22,231 bases of DNA from a virus. This document shows, piece by piece, positions 1-15,665 of the stretch. Positions within the stretch are counted from its first letter, which is position 1. Every line of letters starts with the position of its first letter. A program made the translations under genes and the position numbers. Location: the IMG/VR virus record IMGVR_UViG_3300042351_000658, positions 1 to 22,231 of that record; one strand, 5' to 3'. The notes under the pieces were generated by a model that made no database searches, was not told the origin of the DNA, and worked only from the letters and a program-made list of their open reading frames with translations.

Positions 1-104
1 CTACTAGCACAACACAATCTTCTCTCACTTTGTGGAGAAAGGTAAGTGTGAGTCCAGGGAGCCATACAAAATGTTTTATTTCCGTTTAATGGTTTTATTT
101 TCAT
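1..104 (-). CDS. Radical SAM protein, N-terminal fragment (third in tandem)
   Basis: This is the first 34 codons of a gene cut by the left edge of the window. The translation begins MKIKPLNGNKTFCMAPW and continues to a CC pair near residue 31. The pattern FCxxPW followed by CC is typical of the N-terminal cysteine segment of radical SAM proteins with an N-terminal twitch-type auxiliary Fe-S region. The two complete radical SAM genes just upstream carry the equivalent FCxAKW...CHHP segment. The start ATG (104-102) overlaps the TAA stop of the preceding gene by one base (TAATG), which suggests translational coupling. The CxxxCxxC core lies outside the window, so the assignment rests on the N-terminus and context. 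Confidence 0.7.
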   Translation of the reverse strand, partial: MKIKPLNGNKTFCMAPWTHTYLSPQSERRLCCAS

Positions 105-1672
105 TAATTATTCTTTATATAATCTAATACATCATCTTGAATATCAGTTTCAATATATTCTTGTGAACCTGGATTTGCACCTTGTGGGTTTAATACCCAA
201 CCTTCTTTTTTAGCAGTATCCATAACTTCATCAACATATCTGTTTGATTTTGCATCATCACCATCTTTTAATGAGGTAAGTGGTGCTATAACTGTTTCTG
301 GAATAGAATCCCACCATTCTTTTAATTGTGGAAACGTTTCAACAAAGTTTTTATTTCTTCGTATATCATATTGAGTATAGAATGATTTAAAATCTCTTTC
401 TCTTGTTTGTATAGATGAAGTATGTGCATGACCGGTTTCTATTTCTCTAATGTAAGTTACTAATCTAATCATACTATCTCTTTCCCATTCTATAAATCCG
501 TTTTCCCCATTGTTCCAATTTTTATTAATCCACGCTTCAATTGCGTCTGCTCTTTCTAATCTGATTTCTTTTGGTAATGTTACAATGGATTGAAAAGATG
601 GGAATCTTAAAATATTAAAAGAACAAACAGGTGATTGTGTTTTGTATTTAATTTTTAATTTTAGCATTTCATCCATAAATTCGGGTAAAGTAAATAAACA
701 TAATGAGTTAATCGTCATCATACAGTTTACAGATTGAACATTACCTTCGGATAACATTCGTTCTATATTTTTTAACCAACCTTCCCAATTTAAACCATCT
801 CTAATATACTCAGCATCTTTTCCAGTTGCCTCACAAGATGTATATAAATGAAATGATTTAATATTATGACTTGCTTTTAATAGTTGTTCAAACAATTCTT
901 GTTTTTGACCTAGGTTTGAATTAACTGCAAACTCAACTTCGCAATCTTTATTAGATTCCCACCATTTCATTAGTTTCCAAAAATCTTGTGACATCGTTGG
1001 TTCTCCACCTGTAACTCTTAATTCTCTTAGTGAATATTGTAGTTCTCCTTCCCACCATTTCCAAAATGCTTCTACATACGGATTACCCACATTCTTTTTA
1101 CCATATGGCATTGAGTGTGCACCATCGTGTTGAAATGCACCTGCACCATCTGAAACTAAATTTTGATAAGGTCCGTTTTTCTTTATATCATTTTGCCAAC
1201 TTGTAGAAAATGATGAATTACAATATGAACACGCAAAATTACAATTTGGGTCAAACGCAATTTCTAATGTTTTTAAATCAACATCTTTTTCCCAATTAAA
1301 TGCAGATTTACATTCCGCTAATTCTTCATCTGTATAAATTACAGATTTGTGAACTCTATCTGAAACATTATCTTTACCCAAATCCTCTATCTTCCAACAA
1401 TACTCACATTCTTTAGGTCTAACTCCCTCAAGCATTTGCTTTCGGATTAACTTTTTATATTGAGTGTTGTGAATTGCTTTGTGATTCATAGCAACTTCGT
1501 GTAATGGAATTTTATGTGCGGGTGGGTGATGGCAACTAGCAGTTGTCCCATTTCCCAACCATATTGTAGCATTGTACCACTTTGCTCCACAAAATGCTGG
1601 AGAAATTGGATTTATAACTCTATCTCTGTATTCTTGATAAGTCTCTTCTGGTTTTTTAGCAATTATGCCCAT
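104..1672 (-). CDS. Radical SAM protein with N-terminal auxiliary cysteine cluster
   Basis: A 522-residue radical SAM enzyme that should bind a [4Fe-4S] cluster and S-adenosylmethionine. The core motif CNFACSYC supplies C144, C148 and C151, and the SAM-binding GGEP motif is at 222-225 (RVTGGEPTMSQDFW). Ahead of the core are four further cysteines, C28 (FCGAKW), C47 (SCHHP) and C89/C92 (CEYC), which could bind an auxiliary cluster, as in radical SAM proteins whose twitch domain is N-terminal. It is clearly paralogous to the 470-aa gene upstream: both share HKIPL, MLEGxRPxECEYCWKxED, NPYVEAFW and TGGEP. The C-terminal tail from about 455 is longer than in the paralog. It starts one base after the upstream stop and overlaps the next radical SAM start. 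The substrate is unknown; context suggests a peptide or glycan linked to the fibre/glycosylation operon. Confidence 0.88.
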   Translation of the reverse strand: MGIIAKKPEETYQEYRDRVINPISPAFCGAKWYNATIWLGNGTTASCHHPPAHKIPLHEVAMNHKAIHNTQYKKLIRKQMLEGVRPKECEYCWKIEDLGKDNVSDRVHKSVIYTDEELAECKSAFNWEKDVDLKTLEIAFDPNCNFACSYCNSSFSTSWQNDIKKNGPYQNLVSDGAGAFQHDGAHSMPYGKKNVGNPYVEAFWKWWEGELQYSLRELRVTGGEPTMSQDFWKLMKWWESNKDCEVEFAVNSNLGQKQELFEQLLKASHNIKSFHLYTSCEATGKDAEYIRDGLNWEGWLKNIERMLSEGNVQSVNCMMTINSLCLFTLPEFMDEMLKLKIKYKTQSPVCSFNILRFPSFQSIVTLPKEIRLERADAIEAWINKNWNNGENGFIEWERDSMIRLVTYIREIETGHAHTSSIQTRERDFKSFYTQYDIRRNKNFVETFPQLKEWWDSIPETVIAPLTSLKDGDDAKSNRYVDEVMDTAKKEGWVLNPQGANPGSQEYIETDIQDDVLDYIKNN

Positions 1673-1673
1673 A

Positions 1674-3086
1674 TTATAAATTTATATTTTTACAACTATC
1701 GTAAAATTCTTTGTATTCTGGAAAAGTTTCTAAAAAATTAATACCTCTCCGTTTATCATGTTCATCAACAAATTTATAAAAATTAAAACGATTTCTTTTT
1801 AAAGTGTTTTCATCTTGTTCTGAAAGCATCCAATCGTATATTCTTTTTATTTTTGTAATTTCTATTTCTGAAAACCCATAAGTTACACCAAATTCGTTAT
1901 GAGTGGTGTGATATATTTCTTCTAAACTTTTTGCAAGTTCAGCTGATTTATTTATATTTTCTGAAAATTCTTTAGGTAATATTTGTACAGTTTGGTGAGA
2001 TGGGTATCTTAAAAATGATGTATCTAATGATACTGCGGTATTCCAAGCTCTATCCATAGATGAATATTTTTTCTTATATTCATATACTCCTTTTATCAAT
2101 TCATCAAAACTTAAAATTGAAAATACATTATAAGTACACATTATTCCAATAGTAACTGTAGGGCATTTTGATAAGATTTTATCTATGTTTTTCCAAAATT
2201 TATCAAAATCCAAACCGTGTCTACCATATTCTGCATGTTTACCCCAACCATCGACTGATGTAAATATTACAAAATCACTAACTCTGTTTTCTTTTTCTAA
2301 TTTATTTATTTTTTCAATAAATCTATCGATTAAATTATCAGGTACTCCTAAATTAGAATTAATAGCTAAATGTAAATTTTTATTTGGAGTAGGATGTTCA
2401 ATTATGTAATCCAAAACTTTCCAAGTATCTTTTGCTAATAATGGTTCTCCCCCTGTAATTCTAAATGTGTGTAAATCTCTATATAAATCAGGCCACCATT
2501 CCCAAAATGCTTCTACATATGGATTTACATCGGAATGTTTATATGGTAACTTACCTTCGGCTTTTATTTGCTCCAATCCATTGAATGAATCGGTAGTAGG
2601 GTATCCACCATATTTTTCAATTTCTTCAATCCATTTAGAAGAAAACATAGGTCCACAATACGAACACTTAAAATTACAAGCATTACTAAATGCAACTTCA
2701 ACGTATTTTGGGTTGTAATTTTCTCTCCAATCTAAATTAGATATATCTTCTAAAAAGGGTTGTGACCATGGTTCTTCTGATTTAAATACTCTATCCGAAA
2801 ATGATTTGGAATTATCTTCTACTTTCCAACAATATTCACATTCTGCTGGTCTTTTACCTTCCAACATTTCTTTTCTTTTATACTTTTTATGTTTAGTATT
2901 ATGTAAAGCTGATGGATTGTTTTTAATTTCAGATAATGGTATTTTATGTGGAGTTGGGTGGTGGCAAGAGTGTGTTAATCCATTATGTAAATGCATAGTC
3001 ACCTGTGTCCATTTTGCTAAACAAAACCCTTTTCCAACTTGGTCTAATTTATATTTTATATCTTGAAATTTATTTGTTTCTTGCAT
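1674..3086 (-). CDS. Radical SAM protein with N-terminal auxiliary cysteine cluster (paralog)
   Basis: A 470-residue paralog of the adjacent radical SAM gene. The CxxxCxxC motif is CNFKCSYC (C137, C141, C144) and the SAM-contact motif is GGEP at 212-215 (RITGGEPLLAKDTW). The N-terminal cysteine set is C22 (FCLAKW), C41 (SCHHP) and C83/C86 (CEYC), with the same order and near-identical spacing as the neighbour. This points to a tandem duplication of an enzyme that uses an auxiliary Fe-S cluster. The start lies one base after the stop of the GT7-like gene upstream, so expression is probably coupled to the glycosyltransferases. No RiPP-like precursor was recognised next to it, so a peptide substrate is unproven. 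Confidence 0.88.
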   Translation of the reverse strand: MQETNKFQDIKYKLDQVGKGFCLAKWTQVTMHLHNGLTHSCHHPTPHKIPLSEIKNNPSALHNTKHKKYKRKEMLEGKRPAECEYCWKVEDNSKSFSDRVFKSEEPWSQPFLEDISNLDWRENYNPKYVEVAFSNACNFKCSYCGPMFSSKWIEEIEKYGGYPTTDSFNGLEQIKAEGKLPYKHSDVNPYVEAFWEWWPDLYRDLHTFRITGGEPLLAKDTWKVLDYIIEHPTPNKNLHLAINSNLGVPDNLIDRFIEKINKLEKENRVSDFVIFTSVDGWGKHAEYGRHGLDFDKFWKNIDKILSKCPTVTIGIMCTYNVFSILSFDELIKGVYEYKKKYSSMDRAWNTAVSLDTSFLRYPSHQTVQILPKEFSENINKSAELAKSLEEIYHTTHNEFGVTYGFSEIEITKIKRIYDWMLSEQDENTLKRNRFNFYKFVDEHDKRRGINFLETFPEYKEFYDSCKNINL

Positions 3087-3087
3087 T

Positions 3088-4554
3088 TTATAATTGTACG
3101 TTTATCATATATGAATTATCAGTAATACTTTGAACATGCAATAATTCATATTTTATAGTATTAATACCATCCGATTTATAATCAATTTTATCTTGTTGCA
3201 TTTCTAATATGTATCTTTTTTCATTTTTTGCAGTAGTATCACCTTTTGCCCATCTATCAATTCCACCAATATTAATCAACCCTTCCGTTTTATGTGGTAA
3301 ACACTCAAACCTACCATCAACTCTATATGGTAATATAACTTCAGGTATTTTAACATGCTCTTCAACAAAATTTACATTGTAAAATGTTCCATCATTTTGA
3401 TTAGTTAAATCTGTTATTTTTTTATTTTCATAATCTATATTTTGAAAATCATAATGCAAAACTAAACCATCTTCAGGTTGTTCTTTATATAAATTTGAAA
3501 AACCTATAATTTCCTCTTCACTTAAAGCTCTATTCCAAAATTTAATATCAGATATTTTTCCTTTAAAAAAGGCATTTGGTTCATTTTCTGATACAGATGT
3601 GGTTTTTCCTATATAGTATGGTTCTGAACCATATCGTTTTAATGGTGCATTTAATTTTATTGGGGAATGTGTACCAGAACCATTTCTTGCAGAACTTTCT
3701 CTACCATTTAAATAAAAATGCATTAAATTATTATCAACATCTACAACCATAGTTACCCAAGTCCATTCGTTTTCGTATCGTTTAAACCATTGGTATATTT
3801 GTTCTTTATTTGTATTCCATAACATAGCGGTGTACGCTCTACTATTATTAAATGATAATCCCCAATCATAACCAGGTTTTCTAAATATTGGATATTCTAC
3901 AAATTTACGATTTGAATCTCCTATTAACCAAATTGCTACTTTTTCTATTTGTTGTGCAGAATTTACTAAAATAGAAACAGTATGAGATTCATTTAAAATA
4001 TTTCCATACCTATTTGGGACTTTTATAAAAGAATCAATCCCATTAAATTCTCCTACTTTTTTAAATTTTTCATATTGCAATTCTTTTTTATCAACCATCC
4101 CTTCTTTTACACATCTCCAAAAAAGGTCATCATCTTCCATGCCCCAATCCCAATATTCGTTTGAATATCCATTTGTTTTTCCAACTTGTTCACGCGTAAA
4201 CAAAACTGCTCCTCCAAAATATTGTTCATACTTTAACATATAATCTGATTGAGATATATTAACTGCAATATGTTTTGGATGTTCTTCTGGATATGAATAA
4301 TCGCAAGTATCATCTTCTGGTATCATATCAATATCATGCCAAACTATATAATCACACCCATCATCAAATGCATGTTTAGCTGCAATGTTTTTCATTGCAC
4401 CTCTATTAAATAGTTTATCATCACATTGATGTGCAAAATAAATTGAATAATCTATATCTCTATCTTCTAAGAATTTAGAAACTCTTGGTATAAATTCTTT
4501 TAAATGCTCTTCTCTATTTCTGTATGGGACACATACTCCTAATTTATGCTTCAT
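3088..4554 (-). CDS. GT7 (beta-1,4-galactosyltransferase-like) enzyme with nested LamG-like domain
   Basis: A 488-residue protein. The N-terminal half resembles the GT-A fold of family 7 beta-1,4-galactosyltransferases: VPYRNRE at 9-15, FNRG at 49-52, the metal-binding DxD in HDIDMIP at 73-79, FGGAVLF at 113-119, and the acceptor/catalytic block ending WGMEDDD at 137-143. Residues of about 166-395 instead look like a LamG/concanavalin-like jelly roll (FNGIDSFIKVP, HFYLNGRE, FFKGKISDIKFWNRALSEEE). After that, the C-terminal lobe of GT7 resumes: RFECLPH at 415-421, RY at 447-448 and DGINTIKYELLHVQ at 462-475, similar to the DGLNSLTY segment of animal enzymes. No signal peptide or membrane anchor is seen, so it should act in the host cytoplasm. 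It overlaps the paralogous gene upstream by 4 bases. Donor and acceptor sugars cannot be read from the sequence. Confidence 0.85.
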   Translation of the reverse strand: MKHKLGVCVPYRNREEHLKEFIPRVSKFLEDRDIDYSIYFAHQCDDKLFNRGAMKNIAAKHAFDDGCDYIVWHDIDMIPEDDTCDYSYPEEHPKHIAVNISQSDYMLKYEQYFGGAVLFTREQVGKTNGYSNEYWDWGMEDDDLFWRCVKEGMVDKKELQYEKFKKVGEFNGIDSFIKVPNRYGNILNESHTVSILVNSAQQIEKVAIWLIGDSNRKFVEYPIFRKPGYDWGLSFNNSRAYTAMLWNTNKEQIYQWFKRYENEWTWVTMVVDVDNNLMHFYLNGRESSARNGSGTHSPIKLNAPLKRYGSEPYYIGKTTSVSENEPNAFFKGKISDIKFWNRALSEEEIIGFSNLYKEQPEDGLVLHYDFQNIDYENKKITDLTNQNDGTFYNVNFVEEHVKIPEVILPYRVDGRFECLPHKTEGLINIGGIDRWAKGDTTAKNEKRYILEMQQDKIDYKSDGINTIKYELLHVQSITDNSYMINVQL

Positions 4555-5972
4555 ATTGATACCAATATATGTAATTGATTTGAAATTTTTGTTTTTTCTA
4601 TTTCAGTAAATTCTAATGAATTTAACCCATCTTCTTTTGGATTTTTATAACCTTTAGACACTTCATTGATATATTTCATTTGATTATATCTAGTTGTTAT
4701 GTTTTTCCAAGAACCATTAACAAATCCATTTTCCTCATGTGGTATTAATTTAAATGTATTTTCTCTTCTATGAGGAATATAAATTGTTTTATTTTTTTCA
4801 GTAGATACCCCTAACATTCCACAATTATTAACAACTCCATCATTATTATTGCCTGATAAATCTATGAGTCTGTATTCTTTCATAAATTTAGCATCATAAT
4901 AAGTTTTTAATAAATGTGGTGATTGATATTCTCCATAACTTTGAGTAAGTCCAAAGAAATCATTTGTAGATATTTCTACAATTTCTTCTTCTTTTAAAAT
5001 TCCATCAAATATTGCAAATGATTGAATTAATCCTTTAAAAAATTTAGGATTATTTTCTCTATTAGGGTCACCTACTCCTAAATAAAAATATGGTTCTTTT
5101 TTATATAAATGTAATCTATTTTCTATTGTTTTAGAACCAACAACAATACCATCTTGATACATTGTTATTATTTCGTTTTTTGGGTCAATAGTTACACATA
5201 TATTTGTTTTATAATTTGGTTTTATTTCTGAATTTATATAAATAATATTTTCACTAGCATCATATATTTCAAAATTATATCTTCCATATGAATTATAATT
5301 TATACTCATATCAAACCCAGGAATTGTAAATGCAGAAAATGTATCATCATATGATTCCGGATTACAAGTTAATTCTTCAGGAAAAAACGATAAAAATAAT
5401 GTAATTTGATTTTTAGTATCTATTGGGTTTTTACCAACTACATATGAATCGTTTCCATTGAATTGTAAAGATGCCATATTAACACCTGGCATTTTTATTT
5501 CTTTAGTGTTTAATTCTATATTAAATATTTTACATCTATGTAATAAATCATTATCCTCATATCCCCATCCCCAATATTCATTTGAATAACCATTTATTGC
5601 TTCAAATAAAATAGTTGGAAACAATGTTACACCACCAAAATATTCATCAAATATAATTCTAGTAAAATTTGAATTATAATTTATAAATTTAGATGAAAGG
5701 TGTATAGGATGTGGTGAATATGAATAATCGGCATCAACTGGAATCATGTCTATATCGTGAAATACAACATAATCACATTTTAATCTTTGAGCATATTTAA
5801 AACCAATATTTAATAACTTCCCTCTATTAAATGTTTTAGCACCATCTTGTTCTACAATTATTAATTCAAAATCAATATTTTTATTATTTAAATAATTTAT
5901 TATTGATTTTTTAAAAGCAATTAAATGGTCTGCTCTATCTCTATACGGTACAATTATTGCTAATTTATGCAT
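4551..5972 (-). CDS. GT7 (beta-1,4-galactosyltransferase-like) enzyme with nested LamG-like domain (paralog)
   Basis: A 473-residue paralog of the following gene with the same split architecture. The N-terminal GT7 lobe has VPYRDR at 8-13, FNRG at 48-51, HDIDMIP (DxD at 73-75), FGGVTLF at 112-118 and NGYSNEYWGWGYEDND at 127-142. A LamG-like domain follows at about 168-385 (LQFNGNDSYVVGKNP, MYQDGIVVGS, FFKGLIQSFAIFDG, then LIDLSGNNNDGVV). The GT7 C-terminal segment returns with FKLIPHEENG at 407-416 and EDGLNSLEF at 447-455. The motifs needed for catalysis appear intact. The stop overlaps the start of the next gene (ATGA), and the 59-aa gene ends 2 bases upstream. The pair has diverged strongly, especially in the LamG part, which suggests different ligands or acceptors. 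Confidence 0.85.
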   Translation of the reverse strand: MHKLAIIVPYRDRADHLIAFKKSIINYLNNKNIDFELIIVEQDGAKTFNRGKLLNIGFKYAQRLKCDYVVFHDIDMIPVDADYSYSPHPIHLSSKFINYNSNFTRIIFDEYFGGVTLFPTILFEAINGYSNEYWGWGYEDNDLLHRCKIFNIELNTKEIKMPGVNMASLQFNGNDSYVVGKNPIDTKNQITLFLSFFPEELTCNPESYDDTFSAFTIPGFDMSINYNSYGRYNFEIYDASENIIYINSEIKPNYKTNICVTIDPKNEIITMYQDGIVVGSKTIENRLHLYKKEPYFYLGVGDPNRENNPKFFKGLIQSFAIFDGILKEEEIVEISTNDFFGLTQSYGEYQSPHLLKTYYDAKFMKEYRLIDLSGNNNDGVVNNCGMLGVSTEKNKTIYIPHRRENTFKLIPHEENGFVNGSWKNITTRYNQMKYINEVSKGYKNPKEDGLNSLEFTEIEKTKISNQLHILVSI

Positions 5973-5974
5973 AT

Positions 5975-6154
5975 TTAATCATTATTAGCTTGTGGGGTTG
6001 TTTTATGCCATTCTGCTAAGTAATACTGAGCTCTATCACTCCATTCTTTTTTTTCTATTTCTTCAAACCATACAGTTAAAGCATCCATTGAATTTGCAAT
6101 CTTTTCAAGTGCTTTTACTTTTCTAGTTTCTAATAATAATTCTTCATCTGTCAT
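5975..6154 (-). CDS. Small conserved-looking protein, 59 aa, function unknown
   Basis: A short gene coding for MTDEELLLETRKVKALEKIA and then 39 more residues, including ALTVWFEEIEKKEW and RAQYYLAEWHKT. The start ATG overlaps the TGA of the upstream glycosyltransferase by 4 bases (ATGA), and the stop is 2 bases before the next start, so it fills the gap exactly as a coupled operon member. The N-terminal two thirds should be helical and amphipathic; the C-terminus has several aromatic residues (W, YY, W). No cysteines, signal peptide or membrane segment is present. It could be a small accessory subunit of the neighbouring enzymes. A peptide substrate for the radical SAM enzymes is possible but nothing in the sequence shows a leader/core layout. 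Confidence 0.8.
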   Translation of the reverse strand: MTDEELLLETRKVKALEKIANSMDALTVWFEEIEKKEWSDRAQYYLAEWHKTTPQANND

Positions 6155-6999
6155 ATTGATATTATTTTGTTAATTAATTGTTCCCATTTTGAATAACCTA
6201 AATAATGATAAGTTGGTGATAATTCAAACCCAAATCTTTCATCATCTAATGGTAATTTAAATCTATATTTTGCTAATTCTCTGTACATTTTTCTATATTC
6301 TTCGGAATAAGAGTAATCTTTATTTACATTTGCAACTGCTCTAATTCTTTCTCTACAAGTATTATCCCATTTGAAATGATGAACCTGTACATTATACATT
6401 TCAATTGGTGCAATTAAAGGATGCTTCCAACCTTGCCATTTCCAAGTTGTATGCCCATCTATTTTAGCATAATGTTGCCCGTTTGTAATCTCAACATATC
6501 CTTTTGCAATACAAATTTTATTAGGGTTTGCTCCACTCAATGGGTGTCTAAAAAATCCAGCATACGGAAACTTTTCGAATATATCATCCGTATCTAATAG
6601 TTCAACCATTTCACCATCTACACCAATTCTATCTACAAATCCACCTCTAACCATATCCCAACCGTTCATATCGCATGCGGCTATAATAGATTTAAGTGAA
6701 TATGAATACGAGTGGAATTCATCATCATCTGATATTACCCACCAATCATTAGGATGTGTAGATTTAATTTCGTTATATAATTGAGTTACTTTTTCCCAAT
6801 TATATTTTTCTTCAATTACAGTTTTTACAATTTTAGCATTTCGAAATTCAGATACAATATTTTGAACCTCTAATAAATTAGATTGTTCTTCCCAATCATA
6901 AACAACAATATGCATTTCATCCACCATATCTGTATAGTGGTTTAACATATGTTTTAATGTTGTTGTTCTAGAGCCTGTTACGGTAACTAATCTAATCAT
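6151..6999 (-). CDS. GT-A type glycosyltransferase (family 2-like)
   Basis: A 282-residue protein that resembles compact GT2-like glycosyltransferases. It starts with a beta strand and loop (MIRLVTVTGSRTTTLKHML), and carries WWVISDDDEF at 86-95, which fits the metal/nucleotide-sugar DxD region after a strand. A later VHHFKW at 206-211 matches the conserved histidine/aromatic motif near the end of such domains. It is soluble, with no membrane segments. The start overlaps the stop of the methyltransferase by 4 bases and its stop overlaps the start of the 59-aa gene. It likely transfers a sugar in the same pathway as the other glycosyltransferases in the operon; the donor is not predictable. Confidence 0.8.
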   Translation of the reverse strand: MIRLVTVTGSRTTTLKHMLNHYTDMVDEMHIVVYDWEEQSNLLEVQNIVSEFRNAKIVKTVIEEKYNWEKVTQLYNEIKSTHPNDWWVISDDDEFHSYSYSLKSIIAACDMNGWDMVRGGFVDRIGVDGEMVELLDTDDIFEKFPYAGFFRHPLSGANPNKICIAKGYVEITNGQHYAKIDGHTTWKWQGWKHPLIAPIEMYNVQVHHFKWDNTCRERIRAVANVNKDYSYSEEYRKMYRELAKYRFKLPLDDERFGFELSPTYHYLGYSKWEQLINKIISI

Positions 7000-7763
7000 T
7001 TTCTTCTAACTAATGTAAGACCTGTTGATGATGGTTTATTTTTTACTATTCCAAAATTAAACAAATCAAATGTTTCCCATTTCGGATTATCTTTTAATTC
7101 TTTTACAAATTGAATAGGACCATTCCAATCATCAAAATCACCTCTGTCCTTTACTTCGTTTGTTACTAAATAACTATCCGCAAAATTAGGGTCAGTATCG
7201 TGAATAGAAATAATTCCATTTGGGGATAGCAGTTGGGAATATAATTCAAAATCTTCTTTAACATTTTCATAACTATGTCCTGCATCTATATGTAAGTAAT
7301 CAATTTTAATATCATTTAATACAAAAAAATTATGGAATGCCTCTTCTGTAGTAGTTCCTAAAATACGTGGATGAAAAGTTCTTCTGAAAAAAGATTCTTC
7401 TTTAAACCAATCCACTTTACCACCGATACCATTCATAGCATCCACTACATAAGTAACTCCAATATCTCCCCAATTTAAGTTAGCATCACCTTCAAATATA
7501 TTTTGTCTATATAAATCATATCTAGCCTGAGTCATTAATCTGGGCACAAAACCGCCTCCACTACCTAAACAAACGCAAACTTTTGCTCTCATATACTGAA
7601 TAAGAGAATAAATAATTAAACCATCTCCTAAATGAGTATCGGTTGCTCCATGAGACCATCTGTAAGGAACTGGTGTTTCTTCTTGTTCCTGATGTTCATT
7701 GAATTCTAAATTATTTGTTAAGTAACTTTTTAAGTAGTGTAAATCTTGTAGTACTGGAAGCAT
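6996..7763 (-). CDS. Class I SAM-dependent methyltransferase (TylF/Methyltransf_24-like)
   Basis: A 255-residue methyltransferase. Motif I is VCVCLGSGGGFVPRLM at 62-77 (glycine-rich SAM loop). Later strands are YVVDAMNG at 105-112 and DYLHIDAGHSYENVKEDF at 155-172, followed by LLSPNGIISIHDTD at 178-191. The IDxxHxYxxVxxDxxxxxxLLxxxGxIxxHD pattern is that of macrocin O-methyltransferase-like enzymes, which often methylate sugars. A Bacteroidota-type promoter lies just upstream inside the end of the preceding gene and would give a leader of about 28 nt. Together with the glycosyltransferases it suggests O-methylation of a sugar; the acceptor is an inference. Confidence 0.82.
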   Translation of the reverse strand: MLPVLQDLHYLKSYLTNNLEFNEHQEQEETPVPYRWSHGATDTHLGDGLIIYSLIQYMRAKVCVCLGSGGGFVPRLMTQARYDLYRQNIFEGDANLNWGDIGVTYVVDAMNGIGGKVDWFKEESFFRRTFHPRILGTTTEEAFHNFFVLNDIKIDYLHIDAGHSYENVKEDFELYSQLLSPNGIISIHDTDPNFADSYLVTNEVKDRGDFDDWNGPIQFVKELKDNPKWETFDLFNFGIVKNKPSSTGLTLVRRK

Positions 7764-7796: not shown

Positions 7797-8786
7797 TCAA
7801 ATATACAAAAAAAAATTGAGATTAACAACTTTTTCTATCCATTTATTTTTATCAGTATATTCTTCTAATCCTGTTTTTAATTTATTAAATTCTTTCAGAT
7901 TTTTTTTATAACCTTCTTCTAATATTTCTAAATATCTTTGATGAAATTCTCCTTTACTACTTGCTCTGTATTTGTAATCAATATGTTTCATCCAATCAGT
8001 ATGTATAATTGGAATTTTACCATTATCAATAGCATCAAATATTGAATATCCAAATGGTTCTTTTTCATAACACCCGTGAAATATTTGAAAATTACTTTCA
8101 AAAAATTTTTTATGAAATCTATAATCAAATTCCATAAACCTATGATAATCCGAATTAGTTTTGGAAGCTTCTAACATTCTTCTATAATCATATTTGTTAG
8201 AAAATATAATCGATGGAATGTAATCTAAATAATGTGCGTTCTTTCGTGTTTCACATCTTGCAGCATAACCTATTTTATCCGATAAAATTCCTAAAAACGG
8301 AATATTATTTTTCCATTCATAGTAATTGGTAATTATTTTTGTTTTAGGATAGTATGTATGAATTGTATCAGCTTTGTATCCAATCCAAACTATATTATCA
8401 GAATTATCTAATATTTCTTTTTGCCATTCCCAATCAATACGAGTCATTAGATTTTCATACTCATCGTTTAATCCCAACATATCGGGAATAAATGCGTGAA
8501 CAAAGGTTGTGTGAGTTTTGTAAAGATACTTTTTAATTATAGGATTTGGTTTGTATGAATGATGTAGAAAAATTATCTTATCACACTCATTTAATATCCT
8601 ATTTATTTCTTCATCGTTTTGGAAAGTGTATATTGCATCTTTTTCTGGCAATAACGGTCTTCCATCAACTACAATTTTGTAATCTTCTGTAACTAATGGT
8701 AAGATGTTCTCTACAAAGTTGTTACACCATATATCCGAACCTCCTACTATATTTTTTCCATAACCTGTTGTAATAAATACTATCAT
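7797..8786 (-). CDS. GT-B type glycosyltransferase (group 1/GT4-like)
   Basis: A 329-residue protein with a two-Rossmann GT-B layout. The N-terminal domain begins MIVFITTGYGKNIVGGSDIW, with the GG loop near 15. The C-terminal domain has IGYAARCETRKN at 172-183 and the donor-binding region EPFGYSIFDAIDNGKIPII at 243-261, equivalent to the E(x7)E-type region of family 4 enzymes, although the second acidic residue here is D251 rather than E. It overlaps the tail fibre stop by 4 bases (ATGA), tying its expression to the fibre. There are no membrane segments. The likely role is sugar transfer to the fibre or another surface polymer; this is contextual. Confidence 0.75.
   Translation of the reverse strand: MIVFITTGYGKNIVGGSDIWCNNFVENILPLVTEDYKIVVDGRPLLPEKDAIYTFQNDEEINRILNECDKIIFLHHSYKPNPIIKKYLYKTHTTFVHAFIPDMLGLNDEYENLMTRIDWEWQKEILDNSDNIVWIGYKADTIHTYYPKTKIITNYYEWKNNIPFLGILSDKIGYAARCETRKNAHYLDYIPSIIFSNKYDYRRMLEASKTNSDYHRFMEFDYRFHKKFFESNFQIFHGCYEKEPFGYSIFDAIDNGKIPIIHTDWMKHIDYKYRASSKGEFHQRYLEILEEGYKKNLKEFNKLKTGLEEYTDKNKWIEKVVNLNFFLYI
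7798..7828 (-). promoter_or_regulatory. Candidate Bacteroidota-type promoter (before methyltransferase)
   Basis: On the minus strand TATATTTG (7805-7798) matches the -7 element TAnnTTTG, and TTG (7828-7826) lies exactly 20 bases upstream as the -33 element. The expected transcript start is near 7791, 28 nt before the methyltransferase ATG. The site overlaps the last codons of the upstream glycosyltransferase, so it could raise expression of the modification genes independently of the fibre. AT-richness makes a chance match possible. Confidence 0.5.
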
Positions 8787-11700
8787 ATAGAACCACTAAG
8801 TTTTGCTTCCAATTCTTCTATTCTTTTATTTAAATCTTGTACTACTTTTATTGTAGATGCAAATATAGATTGGTAATTTAAAGCTTCAATACTTCCAGAC
8901 TCATCGTGTAATACCCAATCGATATATCCTAAATCATTAACTTCTTCGGCTATTAAACCAGTTGCTTTATTTCCGTTATCCGTTTGTTCAATGCCATTAT
9001 ATTTACGAACATTTAAATGTAATATACGATTTGCATCCGATTGTGATAAATCTTCAATATTTTTTTTATATTTTCTAGATGATGCTATTTTTTTAACTTT
9101 ATTTTGTGCATTTACTCCCAATGGGACAGCTTGTGAATCGTTATATAAAAAATCAAATGATAATGAATCTGAATAATCCGACTCTGCCTCTTTATTTTGG
9201 TACAATCTTATTCTTTGGGTAAACATTGAGTATCTTTGAACCGAAGTACCAAATATACCTGCTCCGGTAGTAGCATATAATCCTTGGTCATCTATTTGTA
9301 AATTACCAAATTTTATTGAGCCAAATCCAGCAACAGTTATTCCATTAACTCCAGTAACCGTCAACCCATTAGGTCCCATTGTTACCGCACCTGCAGTTAC
9401 ATCACCTGTAAAAGTACCACCGGTTGCAGTTATTTCTCCTCTAAATTTGGCATTACCACTACTATCTATTAAAAAGTTTCTTGAAGAAATCCAACCACTT
9501 CCAATTGTAATACTACCACCACCGGTAGTATATACTCCATCAGTTCCTTTAGTTCCTTTAAATATTGAATTTGAATCAATAGACCATCCACCTATTGTTG
9601 CTCCCAATGCGGATAATTCTGCTACGGTTATTTTATCTGCCGTTACTGCTCCTGCTGCAATCGTACCTGCCGTTACTGCATTTGTTGCAATTTTTCCTGC
9701 TGTAATTTGCCCCGCACCTATTTTTGAAGCAACTACTGCCTCTGCTGCTATTTTACCAGAAGTTACTGCATCTAACGCAATGTTTCCTTCTTGTACTGCG
9801 TTAGCTGCTAATTCTGCATTTGTTACTGTACTTTTAGTTGCCAATCCACCCAAACCGGTTATACCATCTGATGGTGATACACTATTTTTAGTTGCCAATG
9901 CCCCCAATCCACTAACTGCCGAATTTGGTACTGAACTACCAACTGTTAAATTTCCGGTTATATTTAATGTAGTTCCATCCCAACTTAATCCATTTGCTCC
10001 CGTACCACTTAAAAAGAAATTACCATTGTTAGCCATATAGGTTTTCCAACCTGCCGTAGTTCCACTCCCATTATGATAACCTAAATATTCTGAACCTAAA
10101 TAGAGACCAGCAGTTCCAGTTGATGGTGCTTTAATTATTCTACCATTTGCATTTGTAAATACCTTACCATCAACTGCAATTGCAGTAGCACTTGCAGCAT
10201 CCGCAGATGTTTGTGCATTACTTGCGGCAGTAGCAGCATTACTTGCGGCAGTTGCCGCATTATCAATTGCAGTTTTGGTTGCACCACTTGTAATATTAAC
10301 CTCACCAGTTAAACTCAATGCACTTCCATTCCAAGATAATTTATCTCCCAATGAAAGTTTACCGGTACTATCTAAATATACAGGTGTATTTGTATTATTA
10401 AATGCTCCAGAATATTCATTATATACCGTATCGGATGGGTTTACTATTCCACCTATGAATATTTTTCTAGGGTTTTGTCTTGCATCTAAATAAATAGATG
10501 GAGTTGTACCAACTTTAAATAATGTACTAAAGTATCCAAGTTGTCCACCAATAACAGGAGAATAAATTGAATCATTTTCTATAAATGTTCCTGGATATCC
10601 ACCATTTGCTAATTGTTGTACTCTTGCAAAAGCATCTGCTTTTGCATTATTAATACTTGTACTTACACTACTACTTAACGATGTAATAGAACTACTAACA
10701 CTTCCACTCAATACTCCAATTGTACCACTTACAGAACCACTTAATACTCCAATTGTACCACTTACAGAACCACTTAAAGTGACTATACTACCACTTACAC
10801 TTCCACTTAGTGTTACAATTGTAGTGTTAGCTGATGAACTGTATAATGTAGCCGTTCCACTAATAGAAGATGATACCCTATTTAAATCTGCTAAAGATGA
10901 AGATGCAGATGAACTAATTAATAAAATAGTACCACCAATATTTGTATTACCACCATTAAATAACGCCGATTGTGTTACCGAAACAGGTACATAGTTATTA
11001 TTTATATCGTAAAATTCAAATTTAAAATTAAATGTTTCATTACCCAATACGGTTGGCATTGTGGTTATAAATCCAATTTCATCTGGTGAAAATGCAGTAT
11101 CTTCTGATAATTTTAAACTAACATTTCCTAAATGCCATTGACCTTGTGATTGAGAAAAATATAAAGATGCAGTTGGATAATCTCTATCTATTTTAAATGG
11201 TATAGTTGTATCTAATAAATTTTTAGTAGGTTGTGTTCCTATTAGTGTGCCAATACTACTACTTGTTGAACCAGATATTAAATAAATTCCTAAGTTACTA
11301 TCAGTTGATGCTGAATAAAATGCATCTAAATTTAATTCGTAAGTATTTGTACTAGATAAATCCAAAGATTGTGTATATCTAAAATTACCGTTTCCAGTCA
11401 ATCTAACACCTGCTTCAACTCTTGAAGAATCTAAAACTGCAGTTAATGAACCACTATTCCATTGATTTTTTAAAATTTCTGAGGTAAATATACCAGTATT
11501 ACCAACTACACTTCCACTTAAACCATATGATATTAATAATTCTTTAGATTCAACTAAAATATCTTGTATCAAATCATAATCAGAAATATCACCAATAGAT
11601 GTTCTAAAAACTTTTACTCGTTTTACATCACCTGCAAATGTTTCTAAATTTGAAAGTTTTATATCGGCAAAAGATTGAGTAACTGCCGATGCTACTTTTA

Positions 11701-12259
11701 AATCATTTTCAATTTTATAAATAGGACTTAATATTTCGGAAATTTTAACAGTAGGTCTTTTATAAAAACGAATTTTTGTATTATTTGCCAAAGATGGCAC
11801 TACATTTATTTCTTTTTGCCATTTAACATTATAGTTCCCCTCCCAATTTGCAGGTATAGGGGTATTTATCCCATTATTATCATAAGATGATAATTCACCT
11901 AATATAGTAATAGTACATGGACCAAATGCGGTATCCGGATATATGTAAACAGAAACTAATTTAGAAACACCCTCATAATATTCAGTTACAATTGGTTCAC
12001 CACCAACCGATGCCGAAATAATACCTTCACCTGGTTCGTGATAAATAACATCACCATTCGCATCTTTTAATTCAATTTTTATTAAACTATCTGCAATCAA
12101 ATATTCAGAACCTTGTATAAGAAATGCGTTTTTACCACCAGTAAACGTATCAGGAAGTTCTGTTAATTTAAAATATTTGCTTAATGGGTCTGTATCTGTA
12201 ACAAATGTATTATATTTGTCTAAATTATCAGCAAATAATGTTTTTTTAGTAATAGCCAT
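8783..12259 (-). CDS. Tail fibre with C-terminal intramolecular chaperone (peptidase S74)
   Basis: A 1158-residue fibre. The N-terminal part (1 to about 440) is a mixed beta region starting MAITKKTLFADNLDKYNTF, probably for attachment. Residues of about 446-540 form a Ser/Gly stalk of 11-residue repeats (IGVLSGSVSGT). Residues of about 665-700 are Ala-rich (ATAASNAATAASNA), probably coiled coil. Residues of about 810-886 contain degenerate AVTAGKIAAGAV-type repeats, followed by Gly-rich beta structure (GGWSIDS, TGGTFTGDVTAGAV). The C-terminus is an S74 chaperone: SSRKYKKNIEDL from 1060 supplies the Ser/Lys autocleavage dyad, then GLIAEEVNDLG, and a terminal coiled coil ending EELEAKLSGSI. Fibres of this type trimerise and cut off the chaperone. 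It determines host binding. A candidate late promoter lies upstream, and a glycosyltransferase overlaps its stop. Confidence 0.92.
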   Translation of the reverse strand: MAITKKTLFADNLDKYNTFVTDTDPLSKYFKLTELPDTFTGGKNAFLIQGSEYLIADSLIKIELKDANGDVIYHEPGEGIISASVGGEPIVTEYYEGVSKLVSVYIYPDTAFGPCTITILGELSSYDNNGINTPIPANWEGNYNVKWQKEINVVPSLANNTKIRFYKRPTVKISEILSPIYKIENDLKVASAVTQSFADIKLSNLETFAGDVKRVKVFRTSIGDISDYDLIQDILVESKELLISYGLSGSVVGNTGIFTSEILKNQWNSGSLTAVLDSSRVEAGVRLTGNGNFRYTQSLDLSSTNTYELNLDAFYSASTDSNLGIYLISGSTSSSIGTLIGTQPTKNLLDTTIPFKIDRDYPTASLYFSQSQGQWHLGNVSLKLSEDTAFSPDEIGFITTMPTVLGNETFNFKFEFYDINNNYVPVSVTQSALFNGGNTNIGGTILLISSSASSSLADLNRVSSSISGTATLYSSSANTTIVTLSGSVSGSIVTLSGSVSGTIGVLSGSVSGTIGVLSGSVSSSITSLSSSVSTSINNAKADAFARVQQLANGGYPGTFIENDSIYSPVIGGQLGYFSTLFKVGTTPSIYLDARQNPRKIFIGGIVNPSDTVYNEYSGAFNNTNTPVYLDSTGKLSLGDKLSWNGSALSLTGEVNITSGATKTAIDNAATAASNAATAASNAQTSADAASATAIAVDGKVFTNANGRIIKAPSTGTAGLYLGSEYLGYHNGSGTTAGWKTYMANNGNFFLSGTGANGLSWDGTTLNITGNLTVGSSVPNSAVSGLGALATKNSVSPSDGITGLGGLATKSTVTNAELAANAVQEGNIALDAVTSGKIAAEAVVASKIGAGQITAGKIATNAVTAGTIAAGAVTADKITVAELSALGATIGGWSIDSNSIFKGTKGTDGVYTTGGGSITIGSGWISSRNFLIDSSGNAKFRGEITATGGTFTGDVTAGAVTMGPNGLTVTGVNGITVAGFGSIKFGNLQIDDQGLYATTGAGIFGTSVQRYSMFTQRIRLYQNKEAESDYSDSLSFDFLYNDSQAVPLGVNAQNKVKKIASSRKYKKNIEDLSQSDANRILHLNVRKYNGIEQTDNGNKATGLIAEEVNDLGYIDWVLHDESGSIEALNYQSIFASTIKVVQDLNKRIEELEAKLSGSI
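10710..10775 (-). repeat. Exact 33-bp tandem repeat in fibre stalk
   Basis: Two identical 33-bp copies lie at 10710-10742 and 10743-10775, each encoding 11 residues of the IGVLSGSVSGT type. Degenerate copies extend on both sides, from roughly 10640 to 10920. This is an in-frame coding repeat of the fibre stalk, so gain or loss of a unit would change fibre length without a frameshift. Confidence 0.9.
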
Positions 12260-12347: not shown

Positions 12348-12517
12348 TGAAATATGCAATGTTACAAATAAAAAAAGAAACCCACGAACTTCTCAAAGAT
12401 TATTGTGAAGAACATGGGTTTAAAATGGGTAGTTTAGTTGAAAACTTAATCAAAAAACACGTTGGTGTTCATAAACCATCTGTTAATGTTTTAAGAGCAG
12501 ATAAAATTAGAAATTAA
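12347..12517 (+). CDS. Small ribbon-helix-helix (Arc/MetJ/CopG-like) regulator, 56 aa
   Basis: The only plus-strand gene seen. It encodes MKYAMLQIKKETHELLKDYC, then EEHGFKMGSLVENLIKKHVG and a basic tail ending LRADKIRN. The layout is that of an RHH DNA-binding protein: a short strand (YAMLQIKKE), helix A (THELLKDYCEEHG), a turn (FKMGS) and helix B (SLVENLIKKHV). The length is normal for the class. Two identical repeats precede it (12313-12347) and could be its operator. The 3' end overlaps the 3' end of the convergent SbcD-SbcC gene by 11 bases (12507-12517). It may repress its own gene and perhaps the divergent fibre operon, and so act as a temporal switch; this is inference. Confidence 0.85.
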   Translation: MKYAMLQIKKETHELLKDYCEEHGFKMGSLVENLIKKHVGVHKPSVNVLRADKIRN

Positions 12518-15500
12518 TCTTACTAAATCCATTTTCTTTTTTAATTTCAATTAAACCATCTACAATATCTCTCATTTGTTCTAAGTGAGATATAACCCAT
12601 ATAAAATCAAATTGAGTTTTAAGATATTGCATCATCATAAATAAAGATGATAAATTATCGGAATCCAATGTCCCAAATCCTTCATCTATTACTAAAAAGT
12701 TTGGACGAGGTAAATTACATATGTTAATAAGAGCAACTCTTATTGCTAATCCACTAACAAACTTCTCCATACCACTACACATCTCTAATGGCCATTCCTG
12801 GTCATCATAAACTATCTTAGCATTGATTGATTTTCCATCCATTTCCATTACACAACCAAAATCAACTACTTGTGCAAGAATGTTATTTACTTCGTTTTCA
12901 ATAACAGGTAGAGCTTTAGAAATCAACTCATAAGGTATTCCATCTCTCTTTACAGAATCCAAATAGTAGGTGTATAAACGATTTTTTTCCTCTAAGTCTT
13001 TAACTTCATTCATCCTACCCTTTATCCCCTCTACAAACGAAGATATGGAGGCAATAACACCCTTTGTATCACCAATCTTTTTACTCAATTCGGATACTTC
13101 CGATTCTATTTCTTTTTTGGTTCTTTGTAAACCATTTATAATAGTTTCTATCTGAGTATTACGTTTAATAGTTTCTTCATTTATATAATACTTACGGATA
13201 TTTTCTTCAACTACTTCTAATTGATGCTTTACTAATTCTATTTTAGTTTTTAATCCGTTTAATTCTGCTTTTTCGGTTTCTATTGTAGAATATCCTTTTT
13301 GATATTTTAATTTTAATGTTTGTAAATTTTTGTATTGTTCTTTGGATGTTTCAAAAAGACTCATTACATTTAGAGAACCATTTACATCATTTAAACTATA
13401 ATCTAAACTTGCTTCCAATCCTTCTAACTCTTCTTTTGCTTTTAATGCATCTTTTACGAACACATTATCGCAACAAAACTTACAATTAGGGTCATACTCA
13501 TGCGTTTCTAAATGAGCAATCTTATCTTTAATAGATTGAATCTTTTGTTTTAATAATTGATGTTTAGTATTTGCTTCACTAAAATCTTTTTCTGCTTGAA
13601 CATAATTAGAGTGTGCTTCTTCAATATCAATGTGTTCTTCTTGTGAAACATAAAACTTTTTAGTGTCTTCCATTGATTGAGAAACTTCTCCAACTAATTT
13701 ACTATAATCAATAATAGTATTTTCTTTTGTTTCAAATGAAGCAGTATATCCATTTAATGTAGATTGTAATTTTGTTTTAGATTGATTTAAATCATCTATA
13801 TTTAAATTACCATCCATAGGAACTAATTGAGCACTCAACCCAACAATTCTTTCTCCTAAATCATCTCTATCGTATGTTCTATCACCTAATGTTTTTTCTA
13901 AATCTTTAAGTTCAGCAGTTTTACTAATAAATTCAATTTTCTTTTCAGCTAATTCTGAAGTAAAATCTGTTTTCTTAAAGTTTTTAATTAAGATAGAAAC
14001 TTCTTTAACATCTTCACTTGCAATATCATATAGTTTATCAAAGATATTGATACCCATAAACTGTGCTAGTAAATCTTTTCTTTCTGATTGAGATTTATCA
14101 ATGAATAAAGCATTGTTTCCTTGTAGTGATAAAGCAGTTAAAATGAAATCTTCATATTTTCCTACATATTGTTCAATAATGTTATTTGTATCACGTCTTT
14201 CGTTTCCGTTTAGGATTGTATTTAATCCACCTTCTTCTTTCCAAAACTGAACATCAACTTTAACATTTTTTCCTTTGTTAATCGTTTTGGCAGTTCTTTC
14301 AATATGATAATCTAATCCATCAATTTGAAAATGTAAATGACAAACAAAATCCGTTTTACGATTATTTAGAATATTAGATGCTTTAAATGCTCTACTACAT
14401 TTATCGTATAAACAAAAAGATATTGCATCAAACAAAGAAGATTTACCCGCTGCATTTGGTGCAAACAAGCCCATTAATCCACCTACTTTAGTAAAATCAA
14501 TTTTGTTATTTTCCCCATAACTAAACATATTTGAAAACTCAAACTTAACTGGTTTCCAATGTATATTTCTTTGAATATCATCGTGAGTAATTCTACTATT
14601 TATATCTCTATTAATCGTTTCTAAACCATCCAAATCATCTTTACTAACAAATGGCATCATTCTGTTAATATAATCGTTTATAAGAGAGTTCTGATAGTTT
14701 ACATCGGTTATATCTTCAAAGTCTAATCTATTGTTTCTATTTCCTGTTTTTGATTTAGAAAGAGAATCTGTTCTAATAATTGTAAAATCATCTACACCAT
14801 ATAATTGTTTTATTTCAGCAATTACTTTCTTTGTATCAGCCGTATCAGTATTTGATAAACGAACTCTTAAACGAGGATTCTTTGGCATATTGGAAACCTT
14901 TGGAACGTTCCCATTATCAATATCCATAGTATAATATCCATAATCATTTTGAATATCAATTTCCTCATAACTCATTTTATCCAAATCCCAAACAAGCAAT
15001 CCATGTTTATCTAAAGTTTCACCAAAGTTTTGTTGAACTAATGAACCTGCATACGCAATCGTACATCCTTTTGGAGATTTAATAATTTGTCGTTTGTGAA
15101 TATCACCTAATAAGGCTAAATCATATCCATCAAACATATCAGGTGTAAAATGACGAGATGAAACTACATATCCAATATCTGTTTGAGATGTATCCAATGG
15201 TCCGTGAAAAAGAGCAATCTTTTTATTACCAAATAGTTTATTAGCAGGAATCCAATTTTCTCTTTTATCAAAAATAGAGAATACCGAAAAATCCACTCCA
15301 CCTATTGAGTAAACTTGCGTATCTCTCAAATATGTAAAGTTTGGTAAATTTAATGCCTCAACGATTGGTGTAAGAACATCCAATCTATCGGAATTATTCA
15401 TATTACAATCGTGATTACCTGTAATAAGGATAGTTTCACATAACTTAGAACATTCCGTAAATAACCAACTAATCTCTCTTACCAATTCAGGTGAAAGTTC

Positions 15501-15665
15501 TAATTTAGCATGGGCAATATCTCCTGCCAAATAAATAATAGAATCATCCGTTCCCCTCTTACGAATTTCATCAAACATTTTTTCAAATACCTGACGATAC
15601 TCATTGTGTCTTTTCACATTACGGATATGTACATCGGCAATGTGATAGATTTTCTTTAAACTCAT
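12507..15665 (-). CDS. Fused SbcD-SbcC (Mre11-Rad50, T4 gp47-gp46-like) nuclease/ATPase
   Basis: A 1052-residue protein that joins two normally separate subunits. Residues 1 to about 340 are a metallophosphoesterase nuclease: DVH at 11-13, GDIAH at 48-52, GNHD at 83-86, FHG at 153-155 and GDIH at 187-190. From about 370 a Rad50/SbcC ATPase begins (FSNMFSYGENNKIDF), with Walker A APNAAGKSS at 402-410, a long coiled coil of about 570-900 broken by the zinc-hook CKFC (C728, C731), signature CSGMEKFVSG at 963-972, Walker B FLVIDEG at 990-996, D-loop TLDSDN at 999-1004 and H-loop H1027. All motifs are intact. The role is DNA end processing for recombination-dependent replication and degradation of branched DNA. 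The start overlaps the primase stop by 4 bases. There is no frameshift or internal stop at the junction, so this is a genuine fusion. Confidence 0.93.
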   Translation of the reverse strand: MSLKKIYHIADVHIRNVKRHNEYRQVFEKMFDEIRKRGTDDSIIYLAGDIAHAKLELSPELVREISWLFTECSKLCETILITGNHDCNMNNSDRLDVLTPIVEALNLPNFTYLRDTQVYSIGGVDFSVFSIFDKRENWIPANKLFGNKKIALFHGPLDTSQTDIGYVVSSRHFTPDMFDGYDLALLGDIHKRQIIKSPKGCTIAYAGSLVQQNFGETLDKHGLLVWDLDKMSYEEIDIQNDYGYYTMDIDNGNVPKVSNMPKNPRLRVRLSNTDTADTKKVIAEIKQLYGVDDFTIIRTDSLSKSKTGNRNNRLDFEDITDVNYQNSLINDYINRMMPFVSKDDLDGLETINRDINSRITHDDIQRNIHWKPVKFEFSNMFSYGENNKIDFTKVGGLMGLFAPNAAGKSSLFDAISFCLYDKCSRAFKASNILNNRKTDFVCHLHFQIDGLDYHIERTAKTINKGKNVKVDVQFWKEEGGLNTILNGNERRDTNNIIEQYVGKYEDFILTALSLQGNNALFIDKSQSERKDLLAQFMGINIFDKLYDIASEDVKEVSILIKNFKKTDFTSELAEKKIEFISKTAELKDLEKTLGDRTYDRDDLGERIVGLSAQLVPMDGNLNIDDLNQSKTKLQSTLNGYTASFETKENTIIDYSKLVGEVSQSMEDTKKFYVSQEEHIDIEEAHSNYVQAEKDFSEANTKHQLLKQKIQSIKDKIAHLETHEYDPNCKFCCDNVFVKDALKAKEELEGLEASLDYSLNDVNGSLNVMSLFETSKEQYKNLQTLKLKYQKGYSTIETEKAELNGLKTKIELVKHQLEVVEENIRKYYINEETIKRNTQIETIINGLQRTKKEIESEVSELSKKIGDTKGVIASISSFVEGIKGRMNEVKDLEEKNRLYTYYLDSVKRDGIPYELISKALPVIENEVNNILAQVVDFGCVMEMDGKSINAKIVYDDQEWPLEMCSGMEKFVSGLAIRVALINICNLPRPNFLVIDEGFGTLDSDNLSSLFMMMQYLKTQFDFIWVISHLEQMRDIVDGLIEIKKENGFSKINF

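Follow-up and report, generated by a model that had tools for sequence, protein, structure and literature searches.

The stretch of DNA analysed here (the window) is the 22,231-base IMG/VR virus record IMGVR_UViG_3300042351_000658, which has a G+C content of 24-37% and carries all of its larger genes on the minus strand. It encodes a primase-like protein, a nuclease of fused SbcD/SbcC type and a long fibre whose C-terminus carries a Peptidase_S74 signal, and these genes point to the genome of a large tailed phage. We focus on two adjacent genes of this window, GT7A and GT7B, whose products are phage glycosyltransferases (GTs) of family GT7, of the beta-1,4-galactosyltransferase type, each with a whole LamG/pentraxin-like jelly roll inserted into its single GT-A domain. 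The two open reading frames (ORFs) overlap by ATGA, and their products share 29% identity over the full length, insert included. The genes and their parts are as follows.

3088-4554, minus strand: GT7A (P0001), GT7 galactosyltransferase with nested LamG, 488 amino acids (aa) (Pfam, AlphaFold2, Foldseek)
4081-4554, minus strand: GT7A residues 1-158, N-terminal GT-A part, with VPYR, FNRG, HDID, YFGG and WDWGMEDDD
4327-4335, minus strand: GT7A D74-I75-D76, DxD metal motif, invariant in types A and B
3331-4080, minus strand: GT7A residues 159-408, nested LamG/pentraxin-like jelly roll (Laminin_G_3 at 174-349, model strands, Foldseek)
3091-3330, minus strand: GT7A residues 409-488, remaining GT7 catalytic domain, with the RxDGRFECLPH lid and the DGINTIKYELLHV hairpin
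3292-3294, minus strand: GT7A His421, equivalent to the metal ligand His347 (bovine) or His343 (human) of B4GALT1, invariant in A and B
4551-5972, minus strand: GT7B (P0002), second GT7 galactosyltransferase with nested LamG, 473 aa (Pfam, AlphaFold2, Foldseek)
5493-5972, minus strand: GT7B residues 1-160, N-terminal GT-A part (profile match; phmmer to B4GALT1, E-value 2e-26)
4776-5492, minus strand: GT7B residues 161-399, nested LamG jelly roll (Laminin_G_3 at 204-331, model strands, Foldseek to pentraxins)
4554-4775, minus strand: GT7B residues 400-473, remaining GT7 catalytic domain (split profile match, 27.5 bits)

Both proteins match three Pfam families above the curated cut-offs, namely Glyco_transf_7N (E 5.5e-20 for P0001 and 4e-22 for P0002), Glyco_transf_7C (E 7e-19 and 2.4e-15) and Laminin_G_3 (E 5e-14, 53.1 bits, and E 1.1e-10, 42.3 bits; cut-off 27.6). 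In a phmmer search of the PDB, residues 2-154 of P0001 align to B4GALT1 (E 3e-32), while a weak second piece, alone not significant, places residues 453-476 on the DGLNSLTYQVLDVQ segment of the same enzyme. The original prediction, made from the letters of the window, held that the GT7 motifs of both paralogs are split around a LamG-like region, and the motifs it named are indeed present. The LamG-like nature of the insert stands, but its length is 240-250 residues (P0001 about 159-408, P0002 about 161-399) instead of the proposed 220 or so. Likewise, a GT7 C-terminal segment does follow the insert, but the Pfam Glyco_transf_7C match lies mostly before it (P0001 95-153, profile positions 2-60 of 78); the stretch after the insert is made up of the lid and the C-terminal segment, outside the Pfam models.

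To compare these proteins with the continuous form of the domain, a GT7 profile was built from 45 uninterrupted enzymes of bacterial genomes and assayed on the 149 phage proteins bearing the domain. All 149 gave two separate matches, the first stopping at about profile position 170 and the second starting at about 169, with a median of 245 residues in between (range 189-261). Specifically, the second match spans residues 411-481 in P0001 (profile 170-234, E 1.2e-6) and 401-465 in P0002 (profile 169-232, E 4.3e-7). Accordingly, 'RDGTFTGLPHQHEG...DGF' of an uninterrupted enzyme (L119) corresponds to 'RVDGRFECLPHKTEG...DGI' of the split P0001. For a control, the last 90 residues of each protein were compared with a profile covering only the C-terminal part of the uninterrupted bacterial enzymes; they scored above 10 bits in 149 of 149 cases (median 31.5; P0001 36.1, P0002 27.5). 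The shuffled C-termini of the same proteins reached at most 9.1 bits, none exceeding 10, and the inserts passed 10 bits once only, at 10.4. The splitting of the profile, together with this control, rules out a LamG domain appended to the enzyme rather than nested in it. Relatives of GT7A with the same architecture were found in 178 IMG/VR stretches, from which 142 full-length proteins were examined, as well as in contigs of metagenome-assembled genomes (MAGs), always with the insert at the same site; a direct search with GT7B recovered 22 distinct related loci.

The alignment of 79 proteins of type A and 78 of type B shows no variation at the equivalents of bovine R228, D252, D254, Y289, W314, E317, D318 and H347, except that one row has a gap at R228. 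Since invariant residues lie on either side of the insert, the active site needs both sides, and the alignment shows it as completed by residues from the two flanking parts. We strongly infer that GT7A and GT7B are active enzymes dependent on a metal and a UDP-sugar; UDP-galactose is the likeliest donor of both, given that they retain the Tyr that corresponds to bovine Tyr289. Work on B4GALT1 mutants shows that, with Tyr at this position, UDP-Gal is preferred to UDP-GalNAc. The position of Met344 is occupied by Cys throughout type A.

AlphaFold2 models were computed from 77 sequences for GT7A and 71 for GT7B, and reached a mean predicted local distance difference test score (pLDDT) of 90.7 and 92.8 and a predicted template modelling score (pTM) of 0.85 and 0.88, respectively. 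Foldseek aligns one half at a time across such a long insert. The GT-A half of the models matched B4GALT7 and B4GALT1 with a root mean square deviation (rmsd) mostly of 1.4-3 over about 155 columns (for the N-terminal part of GT7A mostly 1.4-2.2 over about 154), and the middle matched pentraxins and 4dqa, as a concanavalin-like jelly roll would. For both proteins, the proposed jelly roll in the middle and the B4GALT1-like GT half are thus borne out by the models. In P0001, residues 461-488, including the C-terminal hairpin at 470-487, have a pLDDT of 97-98, whereas low values appear at 101-110 and 421-440, and at 411-420 in P0002; by alignment, these spots would be loop1 and the lid of B4GALT1. 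Loop1, lid and Trp loop of B4GALT1 move together, and, as the lid closes, Met340 and His343 of the human enzyme come to lie at the Mn2+ site (PMC6198961). From the low-pLDDT position of the lid and this published description, the jelly roll is located at the hairpin just before the lid. Specifically, it is spliced at a beta-hairpin about 8 residues before the metal-binding His, directly upstream of the lid loop.

Uninterrupted GT7 proteins, 194-279 aa long, are encoded by bacteria (Azospirillum, Pelagibacteraceae, Chlamydiota relatives and Planctomycetota) and by other viruses; one scan of viral proteins found 49 uninterrupted and 79 split GT7 proteins, none with an insert of intermediate size, plus two proteins of 441 aa. 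The latter (L268:3329-4654:+ and L279:1760-3085:+) carry a long N-terminal extension before an uninterrupted GT7; the one examined, that of L268, is a family-2 glycosyltransferase (GT2) domain. The uninterrupted bacterial and viral enzymes (L111, L113-L158; L241 and others; PHROG 1721) are the closest continuous relatives of the phage proteins and align with them on both sides of the insert, but they lack the insert, occur as one gene per locus and have no 59-aa neighbour of the kind described below. In conclusion, the homology, the relatives with an empty insertion site, the invariant residues on both sides and the confident models together give good support, for both paralogs, to a jelly roll nested within a single catalytic domain of GT-A type.

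A tree of the GT7 part showed two state changes, the second due only to the very long branch of L144; when four long or doubtful rows were left out, one state change was obtained (support 62). No insert-free member was seen in the clusters with split GT7. The data are consistent with a single origin of the insert, which, as both A and B carry it, would most simply predate their duplication. Stand-alone LamG-like proteins of about 220-280 aa are encoded in the same cluster (L185:12815-13564:+, L164:14810-15481:+, L221:6511-7179:+); the largest family of them is present in 61 loci, and 34 of its members match the insert profile at E <= 1e-3. They are remote relatives of the insert and its possible source. 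A permuted LamG domain, considered on account of the C-terminal 'YDF...D.S.N.NxG' strand pair of the insert, which usually precedes the core in LamG_3, was dropped, since a similar element seems to exist at the C-terminal end of pentraxins and the order is the same in the cluster's stand-alone LamG genes.

Across types A and B, the median ratio of nonsynonymous to synonymous substitutions (dN/dS) was lowest in the N-terminal GT part (0.05-0.10), higher in the C-terminal part (0.13-0.14) and highest in the insert (0.17-0.18); for GT7A the insert has a value of 0.18, and for a third paralog 0.13. The insert is under purifying selection and evolves faster than the catalytic core.

The two genes belong to a run of genes that, in the window, comprises the following features.

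104-1672, minus strand: second twitch-domain radical SAM protein (NF033640, E 6e-91)
1674-3086, minus strand: twitch-domain radical SAM protein, directly downstream of GT7A (NF033640, E 4e-108)
5975-6154, minus strand: P0003, unlisted 59-aa ORF between the GT2-like gene and GT7B, just upstream of GT7B
6151-6999, minus strand: GT2-like protein (weak Glyco_tranf_2_4, E 0.007)
6996-7763, minus strand: Methyltransf_24 methyltransferase (Pfam, E 3e-11)
7797-8786, minus strand: GTx, conserved 329-aa cluster protein (homologue in 67 loci)
8783-12259, minus strand: tail-fibre-like protein, Ser/Thr-rich (C-terminal Peptidase_S74 at 20.6 bits, just below the cut-off of 22)
12507-15665, minus strand: SbcD-like phosphoesterase and SbcC/Rad50-like ATPase in a single 1052-aa ORF (in T4, such functions are split between genes 47 and 46)

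Neighbourhoods were compared in 79 loci from the 178 stretches, those whose GT7A is the most similar; many of them are related strains, so that the counts are not independent. The order fibre, GTx, methyltransferase, GT2-like, third GT7 (where present), GT7B, GT7A, radical SAM is strikingly constant; GT7B together with GT7A was found in 78 loci, the GT2-like gene in 76, the methyltransferase in 72 and GTx in 67. GTx has no significant family match in Pfam, PHROGs or NCBIfam and, judging from its context, is probably a glycosyltransferase, possibly a divergent one. Fibre homologues lie upstream of the cluster in relatives, and the ATGA overlap between fibre and GTx is present in the window and in many of them. 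The content of Ser and Thr is 23% in the S74-type fibres vs 11% in other ORFs. On the other side, the radical SAM neighbour is kept in nearly all loci (the label appears in 79 of 79). In one relative (L052:2998-5742:+), GT7A is in frame with the downstream radical SAM gene, giving a protein of 914 aa in which the last 20 or so GT7A residues are missing; this fusion is either natural or an assembly error. Farther downstream, relatives encode RmlC-type and NAD-dependent epimerases, thiamine pyrophosphate (TPP) enzymes and the stand-alone LamG-like proteins.

Homologues of P0003 were detected by tblastn in 78 of the 79 loci and in none of 51 loci with an uninterrupted viral GT7. This ORF, with a dN/dS of 0.19, had no match in Pfam or INPHARED and non-significant matches only in PHROGs, and is a candidate accessory protein. 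A third GT7 paralog is present in 33 of the 79 loci, with the insert kept (for example L165:6781-8238:+ and L205:6501-7982:+). Tyr replaces R228 in 32 of the 34 proteins so classed, E317 is mostly lost, and the gene is under purifying selection; the third paralog is likely a maintained pseudo-enzyme. What is new here is the place of the GT7 pair next to a tail fibre, in a phage glycan cluster that is conserved, together with the third paralog, the 59-aa ORF and the stand-alone LamG genes.

As far as our searches reach, no description of a LamG domain nested in a GT7 enzyme was found in the literature. By tblastn, neither GT7A nor GT7B matched any of the 50,697 phage genome records of INPHARED, used as the cultured-phage comparison, and NCBIfam has no model for either. 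Among the best 50 BFVD matches of GT7B none was full-length (best TM-score by query length 0.42), GT7 and LamG matching separately. The view that no enzyme of this layout had been described is consistent with the literature, the PDB, BFVD and the phage records. An Aureococcus virus was considered as a precedent and set aside, as its galactosyltransferase and LamG are listed as separate proteins.

Compared with the CAZy GT7 family (B4GALT1, B4GALT7; PF13733 and PF02709), the phage proteins share the GT-A fold, FNR, DxD, YFGG and WGxEDxD, the metal-binding His, the C-terminal DG(L/I)N hairpin and Tyr at the Gal-selecting position. The known domain is continuous, about 250 residues long, whereas here about 245 residues are nested before the lid. 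Among the family features tested, the proteins depart from GT7 only in the continuity of the catalytic domain, which the family definition does not require; the insert is a variation. Its fold is that of Laminin_G_3/pentraxin jelly rolls (PDB 4dqa, 4pbo, 1gnh), which are stand-alone or appended, while here both ends join the GT domain. Eukaryotic enzymes such as GALNT, with a ricin-type lectin, and B4GALNT3/4, with PA14, also pair a GT with a beta-rich, potentially sugar-binding module, but one appended N- or C-terminally and not nested. The GT-B enzymes with an inserted DUF1975 (TarM, GtfA/GtfB, SdgA/SdgB) do have a beta-domain inside the catalytic domain and a paralogous pair in one operon; they are GT-B and not GT-A, the inserted fold is unrelated and there is no homology, so that the likeness is one of analogy only. 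In SdgB, the insert both recognises the acceptor, glycosylated Ser-Asp repeats, and dimerises (PMC8561734), and in this group it joins two paralogs in GtfA/GtfB and trimerises in TarM (PMC8561734, PMC5156392).

We give an even chance to the joint reading of a nested, active GT7 pair whose jelly roll binds a substrate or partner, with A and B working in sequence within a phage glycan cluster. The jelly roll would be a substrate- or partner-binding module beside the lid, and may capture the acceptor, either a growing glycan or the Ser/Thr-rich tail fibre from the same gene run; the A and B enzymes would act successively on one substrate, and the cluster would decorate the virion fibre or another phage product. 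By analogy with the inserts of SdgB and GtfA, acceptor or partner binding is the function that we infer for the insert, with less certainty than the enzymatic activity. Binding of an acceptor glycan is plausible, and dimerisation or binding of a protein acceptor about equally so. The fibre is an attractive but unproven substrate. Several points weigh against this reading. Evidence for the fibre is circumstantial, as fibres are Ser/Thr-rich anyway. Where B4GALT1 has Met344, type B has L, S, K or T, with no residue consistently kept, and whether the C-terminal segment packs as proposed is gauged by pLDDT, pTM and homology. The type A inserts have a mean identity of 0.56, against 0.79 for the GT part, and such lower conservation might suit a specificity module but equally a spacer. 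In addition, no Ca2+ or glycan site was identified in the insert, the pentraxin E-Q-D motif being unseen by eye, with no systematic test made.

Pentraxins, the nearest folds to the insert, are oligomers, and the jelly roll could mainly be an oligomerisation device for GT7A, GT7B, the third paralog where present and perhaps the 59-aa protein, without sugar binding; we regard this as possible, at rather less than an even chance. It accords with the adjacency of A and B in nearly all loci and with a third paralog that keeps the insert under purifying selection with its catalytic residues lost, like a non-catalytic partner. Inserted beta-domains also make trimers, heterodimers and dimers in TarM, GtfA/GtfB and SdgA/SdgB (PMC8561734, PMC5156392). 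However, the many aromatic and charged residues at conserved positions of the type A insert are equally a possible ligand site, and inserted domains can serve both roles, as in SdgB. Rather unlikely, in our judgement, is a cluster that acts on the polysaccharide of the host surface and not on the virion, to mask receptors or exclude superinfection, with LamG anchoring the enzymes on host glycans. The RmlC-like and NAD-dependent epimerase sugar-nucleotide genes downstream in relatives would fit it, and in other contexts, according to a statement quoted in PMC7507832, LamG domains bind polysaccharides; nevertheless, the cluster follows the fibre gene codirectionally, and the ATGA overlap of the fibre with the first cluster gene argues for joint expression with a protein of the virion. 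Membrane or lipid-carrier enzymes did not come to notice, although no systematic search for them was made.

A middle domain that is a passive spacer or hitch-hiker, devoid of function, is very improbable: conservation within A and B is lowest there, but its dN/dS is 0.13-0.18, it is kept in 149 of 149 proteins and in all three paralog types, and none of these clusters showed an insert-free member. The chance of an assembly or gene-model artefact, with two genes fused or a chimeric contig, is negligible. The window is a metagenome contig, but nothing in favour of such an artefact was found, and it is ruled out by the identical layout and site in all 149 proteins, with relatives spread over the 178 IMG/VR stretches and the MAG contigs.

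For a change of acceptor, B4GALT1 depends on another protein, alpha-lactalbumin. Going beyond the substrate- or partner-binding module favoured above, one may imagine a glycosylation machine of new design, in which the jelly roll at the lid hinge would sense or hold the acceptor and couple this to lid closure, and two active enzymes, sometimes a dead third copy and an accessory of about 60 residues would assemble on the tail fibre encoded upstream; we consider this a speculative and rather doubtful extension. In any case, a whole lectin-like domain nested beside the lid of a GT-A galactosyltransferase is a natural experiment in building acceptor specificity. The nested system is widespread in uncultured phages, absent from the phage genome records searched and linked to a tail fibre, and it offers a defined comparison set, made up of an active pair, a degraded third copy and the small protein encoded next to them, with insert-free relatives serving as controls. 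Should the fibre prove to be the substrate, the cluster would represent a phage-encoded protein glycosylation pathway.

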